Source: Dyella choica (GTDB lineage: Bacteria; Pseudomonadota; Gammaproteobacteria; Xanthomonadales; Rhodanobacteraceae). From it: a stretch of DNA of 64,000 bases. The notes under the pieces were generated by a model that saw only the letters and a program-made list of their open reading frames with translations, was not told the DNA's origin and made no database searches. Of this stretch, positions 31,731 through 43,817 are shown piece after piece; the stretch's first letter is position 1, and each line of letters opens with the position of its first letter. Both the position numbers and the translations under genes were made by a program. The stretch covers positions 1 to 64,000 of the forward strand of contig NZ_RYYV01000019.1 of the NCBI RefSeq assembly GCF_003977665.1, written 5' to 3'.

Positions 31731-32993
31731 ATGTCCTGGAAAGAAGTCCCTGATCTGCTGGCGGTCGGATTGTTGATCTACGCCTTTGTGACCGTATCGC
31801 GTCCAGTCGGCGGCATGACGACGCGCCTGTGGCTGGCGGGCTGGATTTGCGTTGAGCTGCATTTCGCCGCGTATTCGTTCCTTGACTTGCGGGGCCCGGG
31901 CGGCATGATCGCTGACGTAGTGGGCACGGCGTCGCTGGTGTGGTGCGCGGAATTGTTCTGCTGGTCGATGGATCCGCGCCTGCATCAATGGGAGAGCCGC
32001 CTGCTGTTCTGGGCCATGTCGGCCGTGTACACGCTTTATCTGGCGCTGGCTTCGCTGCCTGCGGTGCCGGAAGACCTCATGGTGGGAGCCGCCAGCCTGT
32101 TCGCCCTGGTGCCGCTGACCATCATTGCCACGACCCCGAATGCCGAGCGGCCGCCAAACCGATGGATCACGGTGATTCTCAATACGGCACTCGCGCTGGC
32201 CTTGCTGCATTGGCAGTTTTCCAAGCACGGCCCGGATCTGATGAGCGTGCTGCCGCTGTTCGTGGCCTATTTCACCTGCTGCCTGCAATTCTGCTTTTCG
32301 AAGCAGCGCCGGACCGGGGGCTTCGTAGTCACGCTGCTGGGCCTGTTGGCCTGGTCGCTGGTGTTTCCGCTCGGCATGGTGTTCGACATGTTCTATCCGC
32401 ATGTGCAGGTGGGCGCCGAGGTATGGAACTTGCCCAAATACCTGGTGGCGGTGGGCATGATCCTGCTGCTGCTGGAAGGCCAGTTGAGGCGTAACCAGCA
32501 TCTGGCGCAACACGATGCGTTGACCGGGTTGCCGAATCGCCGCCTGTTCCAGGACCGCATCATTGGCGCCATCGAACGCGCGCGGCAGCACAAGGCGCGA
32601 ATGGCGATGCTGGCGATCGATCTGGATGGGTTCAAGCAAGTGAACGATACCTTGGGGCACCACGTCGGCGACGCTGTTTTGCAACAGGTCGCGCGCCTGT
32701 TCATGACACGGCTGAGGCGGGTCGATACGCTGGCGCGTACCGGCGGCGATGAGTTTTCCGTGGTGCTGGAAGGGCCGATCTCGCGCAAGGAGGCTGCCGA
32801 TGTCGCCAGTGCCTTGCAGCAGCTGCTGGATACGCCTCTGACGATCGAGGGGCACACCATGCAGGTCGGCGCAAGCATTGGCCTGGCGATCTTTCCGGAA
32901 GATGCACTGACCCCGCATGGGCTTTGCATCCGTGCAGACGAACGGATGTACATGGCCAAGCGCAATGGCGGCTGCGCGGTGCAGTCGGGTTGA
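31731..32993 (+). CDS. Membrane-bound diguanylate cyclase (GGDEF)
   Basis: A 420-residue protein. The first 245 residues hold about seven membrane segments, and the C-terminal domain is GGDEF. The catalytic signature G338-G-D-E-F342 is intact, preceded five residues upstream by RRVD, a complete RxxD inhibitory site, so c-di-GMP feedback inhibition is expected. DALTGLPNRR and the DLDGFKQVND segment are standard. It should make c-di-GMP in response to a membrane signal. No partner gene is adjacent. Confidence 0.93.
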   Translation: MSWKEVPDLLAVGLLIYAFVTVSRPVGGMTTRLWLAGWICVELHFAAYSFLDLRGPGGMIADVVGTASLVWCAELFCWSMDPRLHQWESRLLFWAMSAVYTLYLALASLPAVPEDLMVGAASLFALVPLTIIATTPNAERPPNRWITVILNTALALALLHWQFSKHGPDLMSVLPLFVAYFTCCLQFCFSKQRRTGGFVVTLLGLLAWSLVFPLGMVFDMFYPHVQVGAEVWNLPKYLVAVGMILLLLEGQLRRNQHLAQHDALTGLPNRRLFQDRIIGAIERARQHKARMAMLAIDLDGFKQVNDTLGHHVGDAVLQQVARLFMTRLRRVDTLARTGGDEFSVVLEGPISRKEAADVASALQQLLDTPLTIEGHTMQVGASIGLAIFPEDALTPHGLCIRADERMYMAKRNGGCAVQSG

Positions 32994-38864: not shown

Positions 38865-39782
38865 ATGCTCAACTTGCCGCCCAAGGACCCACGCTCGCTG
38901 CTCGGACGCTTTCGTTACGGCGGCGTGCTGGTAGCCATCATCATCACCTTCCTGTTGTTCAACAGCATTTTCGTGGTGTCGCCCAGTGAAGAGGCGGGGA
39001 CGCGCTGGATGGGTGGTACGCCGATGACCTCGGTGCCGCTCAAGACCGGCGTGCATTTCAAGGTACCGTTCTTCGAATCCGTGGATCGCCTGCAGACAAG
39101 CCGTTCGGTCTACGTGCTGAATGGTCTGGACGTTTATACCAACGACAACCAGAAAGTCACCATCGACGTCAGCCTGATCTACAAGATACCCAGCTCCGCC
39201 GTCATGAATCTGCTTTATCAGGTTGGGCGCGCAGGTTCAGTGGATGTCGAAACCACCATCTTGCCGGTGGTGCGCGATCGTGCGCTGGCGGCTTTCGCGC
39301 GCTACAACACCCTAACCATCTCCGACCAGCGTACACAAATCACCGCGCAAATGCGCCGCGACATCAGCGATGCCTTGCAGCGATTGTTCAACGTGGACGT
39401 GATCGACGTGCAGCTGGTCGGCATCCATTACTCGCCGATCTTCGACCAATCCATCGAAGAAGCCGTACGCGCCAAGAACCTGGCGGTGCAGGCGGAGAAT
39501 ACGGTGGCGCAGAAGCGCTACGAAGGCGAACAGAAAACCGTTACCGCGCACGCGGAAGCCACCGCGGCGGTGGAGCGCGCCAATGGTGAAGCGCAGGCCA
39601 CCGTGCTGCAGGCGCAGGCTCAGGCCAAAGCCATTGAAACCGTGGGCCAGGCGCTGAAAAGCAATCCCGAATACAGCCGTTTCTATGGCTTGCAGCATTG
39701 GAACGGCATTCTTCCCCAGGTGGTGGGCGCGGGTTCCATTCCGATGATCGATCTGAGCAAGGGGCAGGACACCGGTAAATAG
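38865..39782 (+). CDS. SPFH/prohibitin-family membrane protein
   Basis: A 305-residue protein with one N-terminal membrane segment (residues 20-38), an SPFH domain (VSPSEEAGTRWMGG, VPLKTGVHFKVPFFESV, residues 40-210) and a long Ala/Glu-rich coiled coil (residues 205-270). Proteins of this type build ring or cage assemblies in the inner membrane and often act with AAA proteases. AGGAGG stands upstream of the ATG. No protease gene is adjacent. Confidence 0.88.
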   Translation: MLNLPPKDPRSLLGRFRYGGVLVAIIITFLLFNSIFVVSPSEEAGTRWMGGTPMTSVPLKTGVHFKVPFFESVDRLQTSRSVYVLNGLDVYTNDNQKVTIDVSLIYKIPSSAVMNLLYQVGRAGSVDVETTILPVVRDRALAAFARYNTLTISDQRTQITAQMRRDISDALQRLFNVDVIDVQLVGIHYSPIFDQSIEEAVRAKNLAVQAENTVAQKRYEGEQKTVTAHAEATAAVERANGEAQATVLQAQAQAKAIETVGQALKSNPEYSRFYGLQHWNGILPQVVGAGSIPMIDLSKGQDTGK

Positions 39783-39835
39783 CTGCTGTCTCTAAGGATG
39801 GCCTGAAAAAAATCCGAGATGGACTTTTTCAGTGC

Positions 39836-39903
39836 GTAGGCTGGGATGGCAATCCCAGCATCGGGACGTCGTGTGGAAAGCCGGGATTGTCATCCCAGGC
39901 TAC
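39836..39903. repeat. GTAG-headed REP pair
   Basis: GTAGGCTGGGATGGCAATCC on the left is canonical; the right half has GCCGGGATTGTCATCCCAGG then CTAC, with two changes. It lies between the SPFH gene and the borosin operon end. Confidence 0.8.
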
Positions 39904-39935
39904 GCGTTACACCACCAGCCTTCCTGGCCGGTTCG

Positions 39936-41768
39936 TCATTCAGAGGAATTCGCGTACGGATGCTTGTCGGCGAGCTTGCCGTTGCCGGTATAGGTGGGCG
40001 CGCGGGGCGTGTGCTCGTCCATGCTGATCACCACGCGATTGCGGCCGTCGCGCTTGGCGCGATAAAGCGCGCTATCGGCGGCAAGTAGCAGTCGCCGCAG
40101 GTCGTAGCCGTAGTGGGCCGTGGAGGCGATACCGAAGCTGGCGGTAAGTGCGACATGGTCTTGCGTGTCGTTGGTGGTGGCCTGCAACGCCAGGCGGATC
40201 TTTTCTGCGCGTTCGAGCGCCTGGATGAGCGTGGATTCCGGCAGCAGTATGCCGAATTCTTCACCGCCGATACGGCCGAATACGTCGCAGGAGTGCAGAT
40301 GCTGCTGGCAGACCGACACGGCCCGCTTCAATGCGGTGTCGCCCACGACGTGGCCGTGCGTGTCGTTGATGTCCTTGAAGTGGTCCAGGTCGATCAGCAC
40401 CAGGCAGGCCCCACGCAGCGACTTGGCCGCGTAGCGCAGGGTCTGTTCCGCTTCTTCGACGAAATGCTGGCGATTGAAGATACCGGTAAGACCATCCCGG
40501 CGCGCCAGGCGCATGAAGCGCAGTTGCGAGCGCTTGAGGCGATACAGCCAGAAGGCGATCGAGGCCAGCACCGTTAGCAGCAGCGTGATGTAAAGGCGAC
40601 TGGTCACGACGGCTTTGCCGTTGAGTGCCTGCTGCAGCTGCAGGATCTGGTTTTGCTTGTTCAGTTCGTTGAGTTCGATTTTCTTGGTTTCTACCTGCTG
40701 TTTGACGATCTGATAGGAGAGGGCCTTTTCGCGGATGTCATCGAGATGTTCTTTGTCGGCAGCCACATATTTTTCGTGATAGGCGAGCGCTTCGCGCAGA
40801 TTGCCGTACTGCTGCTCAACTTGATAAAGAAGCTGGTAGGCCTTGATCAGGGGTTCGGTGAGGTTGCTCCTGGAGGCCACATCTACGGTGGCCATGGCAT
40901 ATTTTTGGGCCAGCGCAACGTTGCCTTTCTTCCAGTAGGCCTGCGCGAGAAGCACGTTGTATTCGGCGGTCAGTGCTTGATAGTTGAGTCCTTTCACTTC
41001 ATCGTTGGTGGCTTGCAGAATGGCGAGGGCATCATCCGTTCTGTCCTGCTGCAAGTCCAAAACCGCTATGTCGCGCCGTATCGTGTCGGCCGCTAGTTTG
41101 TCCCCAACATCAAGGCATCGCTTGATGCCTTTCTGAAACAGTTCGCCGGCTATTCGCTTTTGGCCGCCGCGAATTTCGGCGTGCAATTGGAGCATATGGC
41201 CGATGCAGCCAATATTGCCCTTCGGATAATCGGCGATGATCTGCTTGGCATAGCCTGCGGCGAGGTCATATTGACCGACTTCGCTAAGTAGCTGCGAGGC
41301 TTCTCCAAGGATCGGAAAGCGCGCTCCTTGATCGGCAACGGGCGGGAGGTTTTCCAGTGCGCGATCCAGGTATTCGAAGGCTTCCTCGTAGTGATGCTGG
41401 ACGCCCAGGACGTTGATCAGGGCGGCTGTCGCCCGTGTTCTTAGCTCGTTGTCGGGGGCTTGCTTGACCACTGCCTCAAGCAGCGACTTGGCCTTGTCTT
41501 CCCGGCCGCTGTAGTCGGCCTGCCAGCCTTCCAGAAAGCGAAGACGCCACTTCTGTGCTTCGGACATTTCAGTTGTCCGGCCTTCGAGCCCGTCAAGGAG
41601 TCTGACAAAGCCAGGGTTGTCGGTGGTTTTTATGCTGTCGGCCTGGACCAGTAGTTGCGTGATGTCGTTCGAAGCATGTACGGCGGCCATGCCTGTGCTT
41701 GCGAGCATGACGAGCAGCAGGAAGATTCCTGCGTACGGCTTCCGGCGTTTGGAGCCGGCGGCGTGCAT
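39936..41768 (-). CDS. TPR-repeat diguanylate cyclase in the borosin operon
   Basis: A 610-residue protein: signal or anchor (residues 10-32), a TPR-like helical-repeat region (about 35-350), a coiled coil (355-390), a membrane segment (about 393-412) and a GGDEF domain at the end. The catalytic motif reads GGEEF (IGGEEFGILL), intact. The RxxD inhibitory site is absent (HSCD at that place), so product inhibition is not expected. The sensor part lies in the periplasm. Its ATG directly abuts the TAA of the borosin precursor gene, so it is co-transcribed and possibly coupled. Confidence 0.92.
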   Translation of the reverse strand: MHAAGSKRRKPYAGIFLLLVMLASTGMAAVHASNDITQLLVQADSIKTTDNPGFVRLLDGLEGRTTEMSEAQKWRLRFLEGWQADYSGREDKAKSLLEAVVKQAPDNELRTRATAALINVLGVQHHYEEAFEYLDRALENLPPVADQGARFPILGEASQLLSEVGQYDLAAGYAKQIIADYPKGNIGCIGHMLQLHAEIRGGQKRIAGELFQKGIKRCLDVGDKLAADTIRRDIAVLDLQQDRTDDALAILQATNDEVKGLNYQALTAEYNVLLAQAYWKKGNVALAQKYAMATVDVASRSNLTEPLIKAYQLLYQVEQQYGNLREALAYHEKYVAADKEHLDDIREKALSYQIVKQQVETKKIELNELNKQNQILQLQQALNGKAVVTSRLYITLLLTVLASIAFWLYRLKRSQLRFMRLARRDGLTGIFNRQHFVEEAEQTLRYAAKSLRGACLVLIDLDHFKDINDTHGHVVGDTALKRAVSVCQQHLHSCDVFGRIGGEEFGILLPESTLIQALERAEKIRLALQATTNDTQDHVALTASFGIASTAHYGYDLRRLLLAADSALYRAKRDGRNRVVISMDEHTPRAPTYTGNGKLADKHPYANSSE

Positions 41769-42059
41769 TTACTGAGCGGAAGTTGTCGAGGAAGAAGACG
41801 GCTGGCGCGTGTCTCTCTCGCCGGGTTCGTCATCCTCTTCTTCTTCTTCCTCCTCCTCTTCGCCCGGCATGACATAACCGACAGGTGTTTTCCCCTGCAG
41901 CAGTGCCAGCAACTGGGCAGCATCGTTGTTCAAGATGGCCGAGCGAAGCGGGCCTTCAATCGAGGCGTTGCCAAGCGCTAGTTCCATTGCGTCCTTGGTG
42001 ATGTCGCCCCATCGAGCTTCACCGCCTATGGTTTCCAAAAAGCGCATGACATTCGACAT
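41769..42059 (-). CDS. Split borosin precursor peptide
   Basis: A 96-residue protein. Residues 1-57 form a helical domain (MSNVMRFLETIGGEARWGDI ... LRSAILNNDAAQLLALLQGK) that follows the layout of the borosin binding domain seen in split precursors such as SonA and in the C-terminal part of OphMA. Residues 58-65 (TPVGYVMP) are the likely methylated core, and nine consecutive Glu then DDE follow, with a Ser/Thr-rich tail. The start at 42059 is chosen by that homology; the frame extends to 42152. It lies 166 bases downstream of the methyltransferase and abuts the TPR-GGDEF gene. The core assignment is inference. Confidence 0.75.
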   Translation of the reverse strand: MSNVMRFLETIGGEARWGDITKDAMELALGNASIEGPLRSAILNNDAAQLLALLQGKTPVGYVMPGEEEEEEEEEDDEPGERDTRQPSSSSTTSAQ

Positions 42060-42225
42060 CCAAAATACCCCCGTATCCAATGCTTGGGCGCCCCTCGGTG
42101 GGCAATCGTCATCGTCCCTGCTGAGTGACTGACGCATCATCATATCGCGCAACGGATGGAGGCGTCGCCGATATCTGCGGGAACAAGGCGTTGCCTCCCT
42201 TGTTTATCCCTGCGAATGGCCGCTC

Positions 42226-43023
42226 TCAGGCCAATGCCTCCAGGCGGGCGCGAATTTCATGGTCGGCCTCCAGCGGTCGAGCCGGCGGGATGGCCAGCGT
42301 GTCGGCCATGCCGAATTCAGCCAGTGGCAAGGCCCCTAGCGCAAGCAACTCCCTGCGAGGGGACTGGAAGGGCAGGGTGGCGGCACGATAGATCACCACT
42401 TGATGGTCCAGGGTGTAGTGCCGCGCGAGCACATCCACCAGCACCTGGCGATGTGCCTCGCCGGTCGAGAAACGCATGAGTGTTTTGTCGCCCGCTACCC
42501 CGACCTGCCACAGGATCAGCCACGCGCTCGGATCGATACAGCGGCGATAAAGCATGAACTGACTGGCTTCGTAATGCTGGCAGCCGCGGGCGCCTGGGTC
42601 GATGCCGAGATCGGCATACAGGCAGTCTTCGGAGGAAATGCCCGGTTCCATGTGGGCGTGGTAGCCCTTGCTGCGCGCGGTCCGGATGGCCTTGTGCGGG
42701 ACCCAGGCGAAGACGCCTGGGTGTCCGTAGAACACGCCGCAGACGCGCCTGCCGGCACTTACCTCGGCCATGATGGCGTTCACCATCTGCCGGTAGGTCT
42801 TCATCCTCGACTTGCCTTCCTGGTAGTACGGCTGCAGGCTGCGCACGTCTTCGTTCATGCCTTGCAGCCACAGTTCGACGATGCCGTCGGACACCAGGGT
42901 GAACACCACATCGGCCTGTTCGATATAGGCGTGGGCGCGCCGGCTGAGGTGGGATCCCAGCGTCATGCCTATACCCACGCAGGCCAGGCTTCCCTTGGGC
43001 TGTATGCTGTCCAAAACTTCCAT
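42226..43023 (-). CDS. Borosin alpha-N-methyltransferase (tetrapyrrole-methylase fold)
   Basis: A 265-residue enzyme closely following the methyltransferase half of OphMA/SonM-type borosin enzymes: GSLACVGIGM, PYYQEGKSRMKTYRQM, GVFYGHPGVFAWVPHKA, PGISSEDCLYADLGIDP and YEASQFMLYRR. The residues matching OphMA Arg72, Tyr76 and Tyr98 are Arg73, Tyr77 and Tyr99, so it should be active. The family methylates backbone amides of a precursor using S-adenosylmethionine. Here the precursor is encoded separately, immediately downstream (split borosin). General tetrapyrrole methylases lack this FYGHPGVF and EDCLxADL combination. Confidence 0.88.
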   Translation of the reverse strand: MEVLDSIQPKGSLACVGIGMTLGSHLSRRAHAYIEQADVVFTLVSDGIVELWLQGMNEDVRSLQPYYQEGKSRMKTYRQMVNAIMAEVSAGRRVCGVFYGHPGVFAWVPHKAIRTARSKGYHAHMEPGISSEDCLYADLGIDPGARGCQHYEASQFMLYRRCIDPSAWLILWQVGVAGDKTLMRFSTGEAHRQVLVDVLARHYTLDHQVVIYRAATLPFQSPRRELLALGALPLAEFGMADTLAIPPARPLEADHEIRARLEALA

Positions 43024-43100
43024 CCCCTACTGCTTGCGTAGCGGTATTGTGCCCTGGGCGGCGATGGTCGAGCGCCTTGACAGCTTGGATGGGAGCAGAC

Positions 43101-43736
43101 TTGAGCGAGCGCGCGACACCGGATGATTGGGATTTGCCTGATCCTGAAAGATCCGGCCGAACGTTCGTCTACGTGCTGCCGTCCCAGGGTGAGGACTTGA
43201 CCAAGCTGGGTTTCACGCAAGATCCGGTGCAGCGGTTTCGCAGTTTCCATCCGCGGTTCTTCGCTTTGTTCGACCTGGAAAGCGGCCTGCTGGTGGAGAC
43301 CGGGCGGCTGCGCGACGCACGGCGATTGGAGCGGTTGCTGATCGAGCGTTGGCCGGACCATCGCGCCCCGGCTCCCTTGTTGGTGGCGGAGGCAGCCGGC
43401 GGTCACACCGAATGGTTCCGTGGTATAGGGGGAGAGGTGGATGCATTCGTACGCCGTACAGCGGAGCGTTACGGCTATGCATTGCATGCGCCCTTGAGCG
43501 CCTGGCTGCGTGCGCGCTTTTCGGAGCGGGCGGACCAGCTTTACGAGTGGTCGCAGCGTCTGCTGGAGATGATCGAGTGGCAAACAGCGAATCTGCCGCC
43601 GGAGGAACGCAATCTACGTTATGCCAAGGCGCTGCGTGACAATCTCGACGCTTGTCACGCAGTCGGCATGAATCTGCATGCACTGTTGCCGGCCAGGGTG
43701 ATGGCCTGGTATGCATCCGCGCGAGGCAACGGCTAG
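43101..43736 (+). CDS. GIY-YIG / T5orf172-like nuclease-domain protein
   Basis: A 211-residue protein with a GIY-YIG-like core: FVYVLPSQGEDLTKLGFTQD then RFRSFHPRFFALFDL, DARRLERLLIERW. This follows the T5orf172 (GIY-YIG) arrangement with K-LG-T in the second strand. The start is uncertain: TTG at 43101 has GGGAG upstream, ATG at 43089 has none. It diverges from the borosin methyltransferase with about 77 bases between them, so they share a control region. Function and target are unknown. Confidence 0.6.
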   Translation: MSERATPDDWDLPDPERSGRTFVYVLPSQGEDLTKLGFTQDPVQRFRSFHPRFFALFDLESGLLVETGRLRDARRLERLLIERWPDHRAPAPLLVAEAAGGHTEWFRGIGGEVDAFVRRTAERYGYALHAPLSAWLRARFSERADQLYEWSQRLLEMIEWQTANLPPEERNLRYAKALRDNLDACHAVGMNLHALLPARVMAWYASARGNG

Positions 43737-43817
43737 ATGCAGCTCGTCCGGTGACGCTGCTGACAGTATGTTGTCAGCAGCCTCGATTAAGCTGCGCATA
43801 CCTTTTTTGTGGAACCC

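Follow-up and report, generated by a model that had tools for sequence, protein, structure and literature searches.

In the fungal borosins OphMA and dbOphMA the core is fused to the enzyme, and we know of no GGDEF partner of these fused proteins. In Rap-Phr systems the receptor gene adjoins a small peptide gene; the Rap receptors are cytosolic tetratricopeptide repeat (TPR) proteins without cyclase output, and the Phr pheromone is not backbone-methylated. Membrane diguanylate cyclases with periplasmic sensors combine, as is predicted for the cyclase described here, a sensor, a membrane segment and a GGDEF output, and the text of a review on them (PMC8846402) contains neither "TPR" nor "tetratricopeptide". 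The closest described system is the type IV split borosin SonM/SonA of Shewanella oneidensis, in which a discrete precursor carries the borosin-binding domain and the methylated residues are Leu63 and Ile65 of SonA (PMC8429565). We analysed a 64,000-nt window of the soil bacterium Dyella choica (5.49-Mb genome; contig NZ_RYYV01000019.1, positions 1 to 64,000), whose open reading frames (ORFs) include a minus-strand three-gene unit at 39936-43023 for a SonM-type methyltransferase, a split borosin precursor and a TPR-GGDEF diguanylate cyclase. An earlier note had placed the three ORFs at these positions, and the ORF check agreed. In its layout the unit belongs to the known SonM/SonA lineage, because a TPR-GGDEF gene follows the SonM orthologue in all 20 Shewanella loci surveyed.

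The first gene (42226-43023, minus strand) encodes a 265-aa putative peptide backbone alpha-N-methyltransferase, which contains both motifs ascribed to it in the earlier note (FYGHPGVF and EDCLYADL) and matches PF00590 (TP_methylase) at 2.6e-20. In a phmmer search of solved structures it retrieved SonM (7ltc) at 1.2e-76, dbOphM at 6.2e-52 and OphMA constructs at 5.9e-49 to 1.2e-47, the whole range for SonM and the fungal borosin enzymes being 1.2e-76 to 1.5e-46, whereas the best tetrapyrrole methyltransferase reached only 0.27. The identity to SonM is 51% over the aligned part, and the nearest named relatives by methyltransferase are Dyella species. Residues R73, Y77 and Y99, which would correspond to the catalytic trio of OphMA, do not vary among 12 aligned diverse sequences, the window's included. 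They align with R67, Y71 and Y93 of SonM (numbering of PMC8429565). Judged by its sequence, the enzyme is a borosin-type alpha-N-methyltransferase with conserved catalytic residues. The same genome encodes a fourth and more distant SonM homologue (G000:C12:377147-377773, locus L047; 44% identity). Its 465-aa frame includes a C-terminal extension, neither a GGDEF nor a precursor match was found beside it, and it may be a fused-type borosin.

The 96-aa precursor (41769-42059, minus strand) is separated from the enzyme by a 166-nt spacer (42060-42225). A profile of 22 precursors matched SonA chains at E 6e-4, the best of them gapless over residues 1-63, and this bears out the borosin-binding half claimed for the protein; the lone window precursor searched against the PDB gave no SonA match, and in a Foldseek search of its model SonA was not significant (E 5.3), the top row being a homeodomain. 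The model has four predicted helices, with block predicted local distance difference test (pLDDT) values of 85-92 to residue 50. Profile and model together indicate that the separately encoded precursor carries a predicted borosin-binding domain (residues 1-55; 41895-42059). The proposed core, TPVGYVMPG (residues 58-66; 41862-41888), was located by alignment with SonA, which extends to residue 63 and was continued by position: V63 lies opposite Leu63 and fits the hydrophobic type IV core near residues 62-66, whereas P65 stands opposite the second methylated residue, Ile65. The window precursor also differs from SonA in an acidic tail of 30 residues (67-96; 41772-41861), predicted to be disordered (block pLDDT 53-61), whereas Shewanella SonA-type precursors mostly end at about residue 70-75; a net acidic tail occurs in 108 of 129 distinct precursor matches. 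Some precursors depart from this pattern. In paralogous units (L048, L053, L054, L065, L067 and similar loci) a polar segment (such as PQSTQ or PQITQ, followed by PGHEE or a similar sequence) replaces the hydrophobic core; a 140-aa precursor (L081:7500-7919) has four EEEIR-type units in its tail, as in multi-core precursors of ribosomally synthesized and post-translationally modified peptides (RiPPs); and the precursors of a Steroidobacter metagenome-assembled genome and of Povalibacter uvarum (L121:9417-9845 and L136:9473-9901) have long lysine-rich tails instead of acidic ones.

The stop codon of the precursor (41769-41771) directly abuts the ATG of the cyclase (41766-41768), just as the earlier note had read it. 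The 610-aa protein encoded there (39936-41768, minus strand) matches PF00990 (6e-39) and TPR_12 (2.4e-8), and its AlphaFold2 model has a mean pLDDT of 89.5 and a predicted template modelling score of 0.61. Its GGDEF domain (40035-40502) has the catalytic motif as GGEEF (40254-40268; present in 166 of 169 TPR matches) and histidine in place of the I-site arginine, and the protein is predicted to be a diguanylate cyclase. Ahead of this domain a transmembrane segment (residues 387-405; 40554-40610) is predicted from hydropathy above a threshold of our choosing, as in all 165 homologues examined. The TPR superhelix (about residues 31-355; 40704-41678) looks extracytoplasmic because of this segment, the hydrophobic N terminus (in 147 of 165 homologues) and an invariant cysteine pair, C188 and C218 (50 sequences), and it is probably periplasmic. 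Its model matches Rap pheromone receptors in structure; such a fold match is common to unrelated TPR proteins too, and the likeness to Rap-Phr and related receptors is one of fold and layout only.

SonM was matched at 1e-60 in 52 of 60 Shewanella genomes. In the 20 loci taken, the enzymes are 67-99% identical to SonM (four at 98-99%; S. oneidensis MR-1 was not identified among them); in L227 and L231 the TPR-GGDEF gene is broken into two frames, and a SonA-type precursor lies between enzyme and cyclase in 18 at a loose threshold, at which none was found in L231 and L233. Two further Shewanella loci show the same order. The link to cyclic di-GMP (c-di-GMP) is therefore a property of the SonM lineage. 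A class-wide search (SonM matches at 1e-30 in 9 of 369 genomes) had found a TPR-GGDEF gene at one of seven loci taken outside two close genomes, and the idea of a SonM without a GGDEF partner that arose from it is ruled out by the Shewanella loci. The Shewanella layout also contradicts the earlier note's statement that the operon is undescribed, and the Figure 1 legend of PMC11395268 (2024), which covers the borosin types drawn there, names a GGDEF-sequence-containing domain; in a search of the open-access literature, "borosin" and "GGDEF" occurred together only in that paper. As a drawing, going by this legend, the GGDEF link is thus not new. What stands of the note's overall claim is a split borosin pair in one unit with a TPR-GGDEF gene; its functional tie to c-di-GMP is something we infer.

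In the window's own and related genomes, 92 methyltransferase places were found in 60 of 100 genomes, and all but the four weakest were taken. A TPR-GGDEF gene lies within 3.5 kb downstream in 78 of the 88 ORFs (with a precursor, on the same strand, in 70; without a precursor match in 8), whereas for six the GGDEF gene lies upstream, at most 6 kb away, and four have none. Among 57 loci of named genomes, a search that reached close relatives only and shares some loci with the former set, the gene follows within 3.5 kb in 56 (all three genes in 40, no precursor match in 16), and the last locus, at a contig end, has none. For a quick tree, 153 sequences were thinned by similarity to 80; the tree has several long branches, and SonM carries no neighbourhood label in it. 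One of its clades comprises 70 enzymes (99 in the Shimodaira-Hasegawa-like approximate likelihood ratio test), 66 of which have a same-strand GGDEF gene within 3.5 kb (63 downstream, 3 upstream). GGDEF genes thus recur beside this methyltransferase clade. In line with the earlier note's assignment, the sequence searches group the enzyme with SonM and OphMA, while the precursor family falls with SonA.

The association goes beyond chance, because PF00990 has 24 matches in the D. choica genome and yet three of the four SonM homologues (all but that of L047) are followed by a GGDEF gene, and the only three matches in that genome that span TPR and GGDEF are all at borosin loci. Across 41 genomes, enzyme and cyclase are both present in 24 and both absent from 14; the methyltransferase occurs alone in two (at the thresholds used) and the cyclase alone in one, the genome of which is 86% complete. 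Eleven cyclase loci lack an adjacent methyltransferase, and in nine of them the cyclase is still immediately preceded by an intact precursor (a stub is left in one, nothing in another), so that precursor and cyclase can stay together after the loss of the methyltransferase. Remnants of the enzyme gene persist at two of the eleven; the short remnants L187:9169-9261 and L188:7471-7593 lie near intact pairs. Ten of the eleven genomes carry a methyltransferase elsewhere, which could act in trans on the enzyme-less pairs.

To the following account we give about even chances: the locus would be a split borosin unit of the SonM/SonA kind that has c-di-GMP signalling as its output, with the modified peptide serving as cyclase input. 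The methyltransferase would dock the borosin-binding domain of the precursor and methylate backbone amides of the short segment right after it, most likely at Val63, while Pro65 would provide the second tertiary amide, which in SonA arises through methylation of Ile65 by SonM. Either intact or after cleavage, the modified peptide would then be exported and bound by the probably periplasmic TPR superhelix of the adjacent protein, and the signal would pass through the long helix and the membrane segment to set the activity of the cytosolic cyclase. A precursor that serves as cyclase input and a methyltransferase that shapes it fit the enzyme-less pairs and the three TPR-GGDEF proteins at borosin loci. 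The repeat counts weigh against a strict pair: of the 28 loci with one methyltransferase and repeats, 15 repeat the cyclase only and four the precursor only, eight have two of each and one has three and five. Candidate exporter and peptidase genes lie near few loci only, an ATP-binding cassette (ABC) ATPase cluster in 10 of 151 and a pro-kumamolisin peptidase cluster in 8 of 151. A wider version appears possible though rather doubtful: the split borosins of the SonM lineage would be backbone-methylated peptide signals, not antibiotics, with the adjacent Rap-like TPR diguanylate cyclase as dedicated receptor, a peptide-pheromone route into c-di-GMP in Gram-negatives in which the proline of this branch hard-codes one of the two tertiary amides.

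Alternatively, the peptide may be a bioactive compound made for export, with the TPR-GGDEF protein sensing some other input (the envelope state or another ligand), the operon merely tying production to life style. Many RiPPs are exported, no ligand is known for the TPR-GGDEF protein, TPR superhelices bind many partners, as the structural matches illustrate, and the cyclase is the part most often repeated alone; the retention of precursor with cyclase at nine enzyme-less loci and the rarity of the ABC ATPase cluster make this unlikely. We consider equally improbable a precursor that stays in the cell as a protein regulator of the cyclase, tuned by methylation, with no small peptide released: by eye the precursor has no evident signal peptide, peptidase genes are rare and the pairs persist without an adjacent methyltransferase, but the TPR sensor looks extracytoplasmic. 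Still less probable is the reverse direction, in which the cyclase, through its c-di-GMP, would control the borosin genes or enzyme; all lie in one gene unit and diguanylate cyclases that regulate neighbours are known in general, but the most constant partner of the cyclase is the precursor, not the enzyme. An ordinary tetrapyrrole methylase beside a small ORF unrelated to borosins is hardly credible and was rejected, since the match to the broad TP_methylase family is set against phmmer values of about 1e-76 for SonM and 0.27 for the tetrapyrrole enzyme, and against the SonA match of the precursor profile.

In the neighbourhoods, 40 ORF clusters occur in at least 8 of the 151 loci; many of these are wrong-frame ORFs or reflect synteny within Dyella, and only a few were named via Pfam. 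A GNAT acetyltransferase cluster occurs in 51 loci, and such a gene immediately precedes 37 of 152 methyltransferases (L100, L106, L138 and 34 other places), but not the window's; a histidine kinase belongs to a mixed 50-locus cluster, and LigT-like and LysR proteins are also among the named neighbours. The pro-kumamolisin-type peptidase, a possible processing enzyme, is encoded no more than about 7 kb from the unit at L031:2725-4515 and seven further loci and is absent from the window's list. In the window, a divergent T5orf172-domain gene (43047-43736) adjoins the methyltransferase, and a further GGDEF gene without a TPR-part match (32445-32972, plus strand) lies about 7 kb off the unit. The best RNA element match in 39500-43800 had E 0.18, under its gathering score; promoter-like sites (1, against 0.9 in shuffles) and terminator-like sites (5, against 3.8, sd 2.1) showed no excess at the locus, and neither enzyme nor precursor matched in a PHROGs search.

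At the time of the SonM description, the final product was not known for any type IV borosin pathway (PMC8429565). Our survey adds the constancy of the borosin/TPR-GGDEF association across the lineage. The GGDEF genes beside 66 of the 70 clade enzymes, the recurrence of this partner next to SonM orthologues and the enzyme-less pairs point to a concrete, testable function, namely that the peptide would be an input to c-di-GMP signalling. Since the TPR-GGDEF unit also surrounds close SonM relatives, borosin peptides of this kind may be signals.
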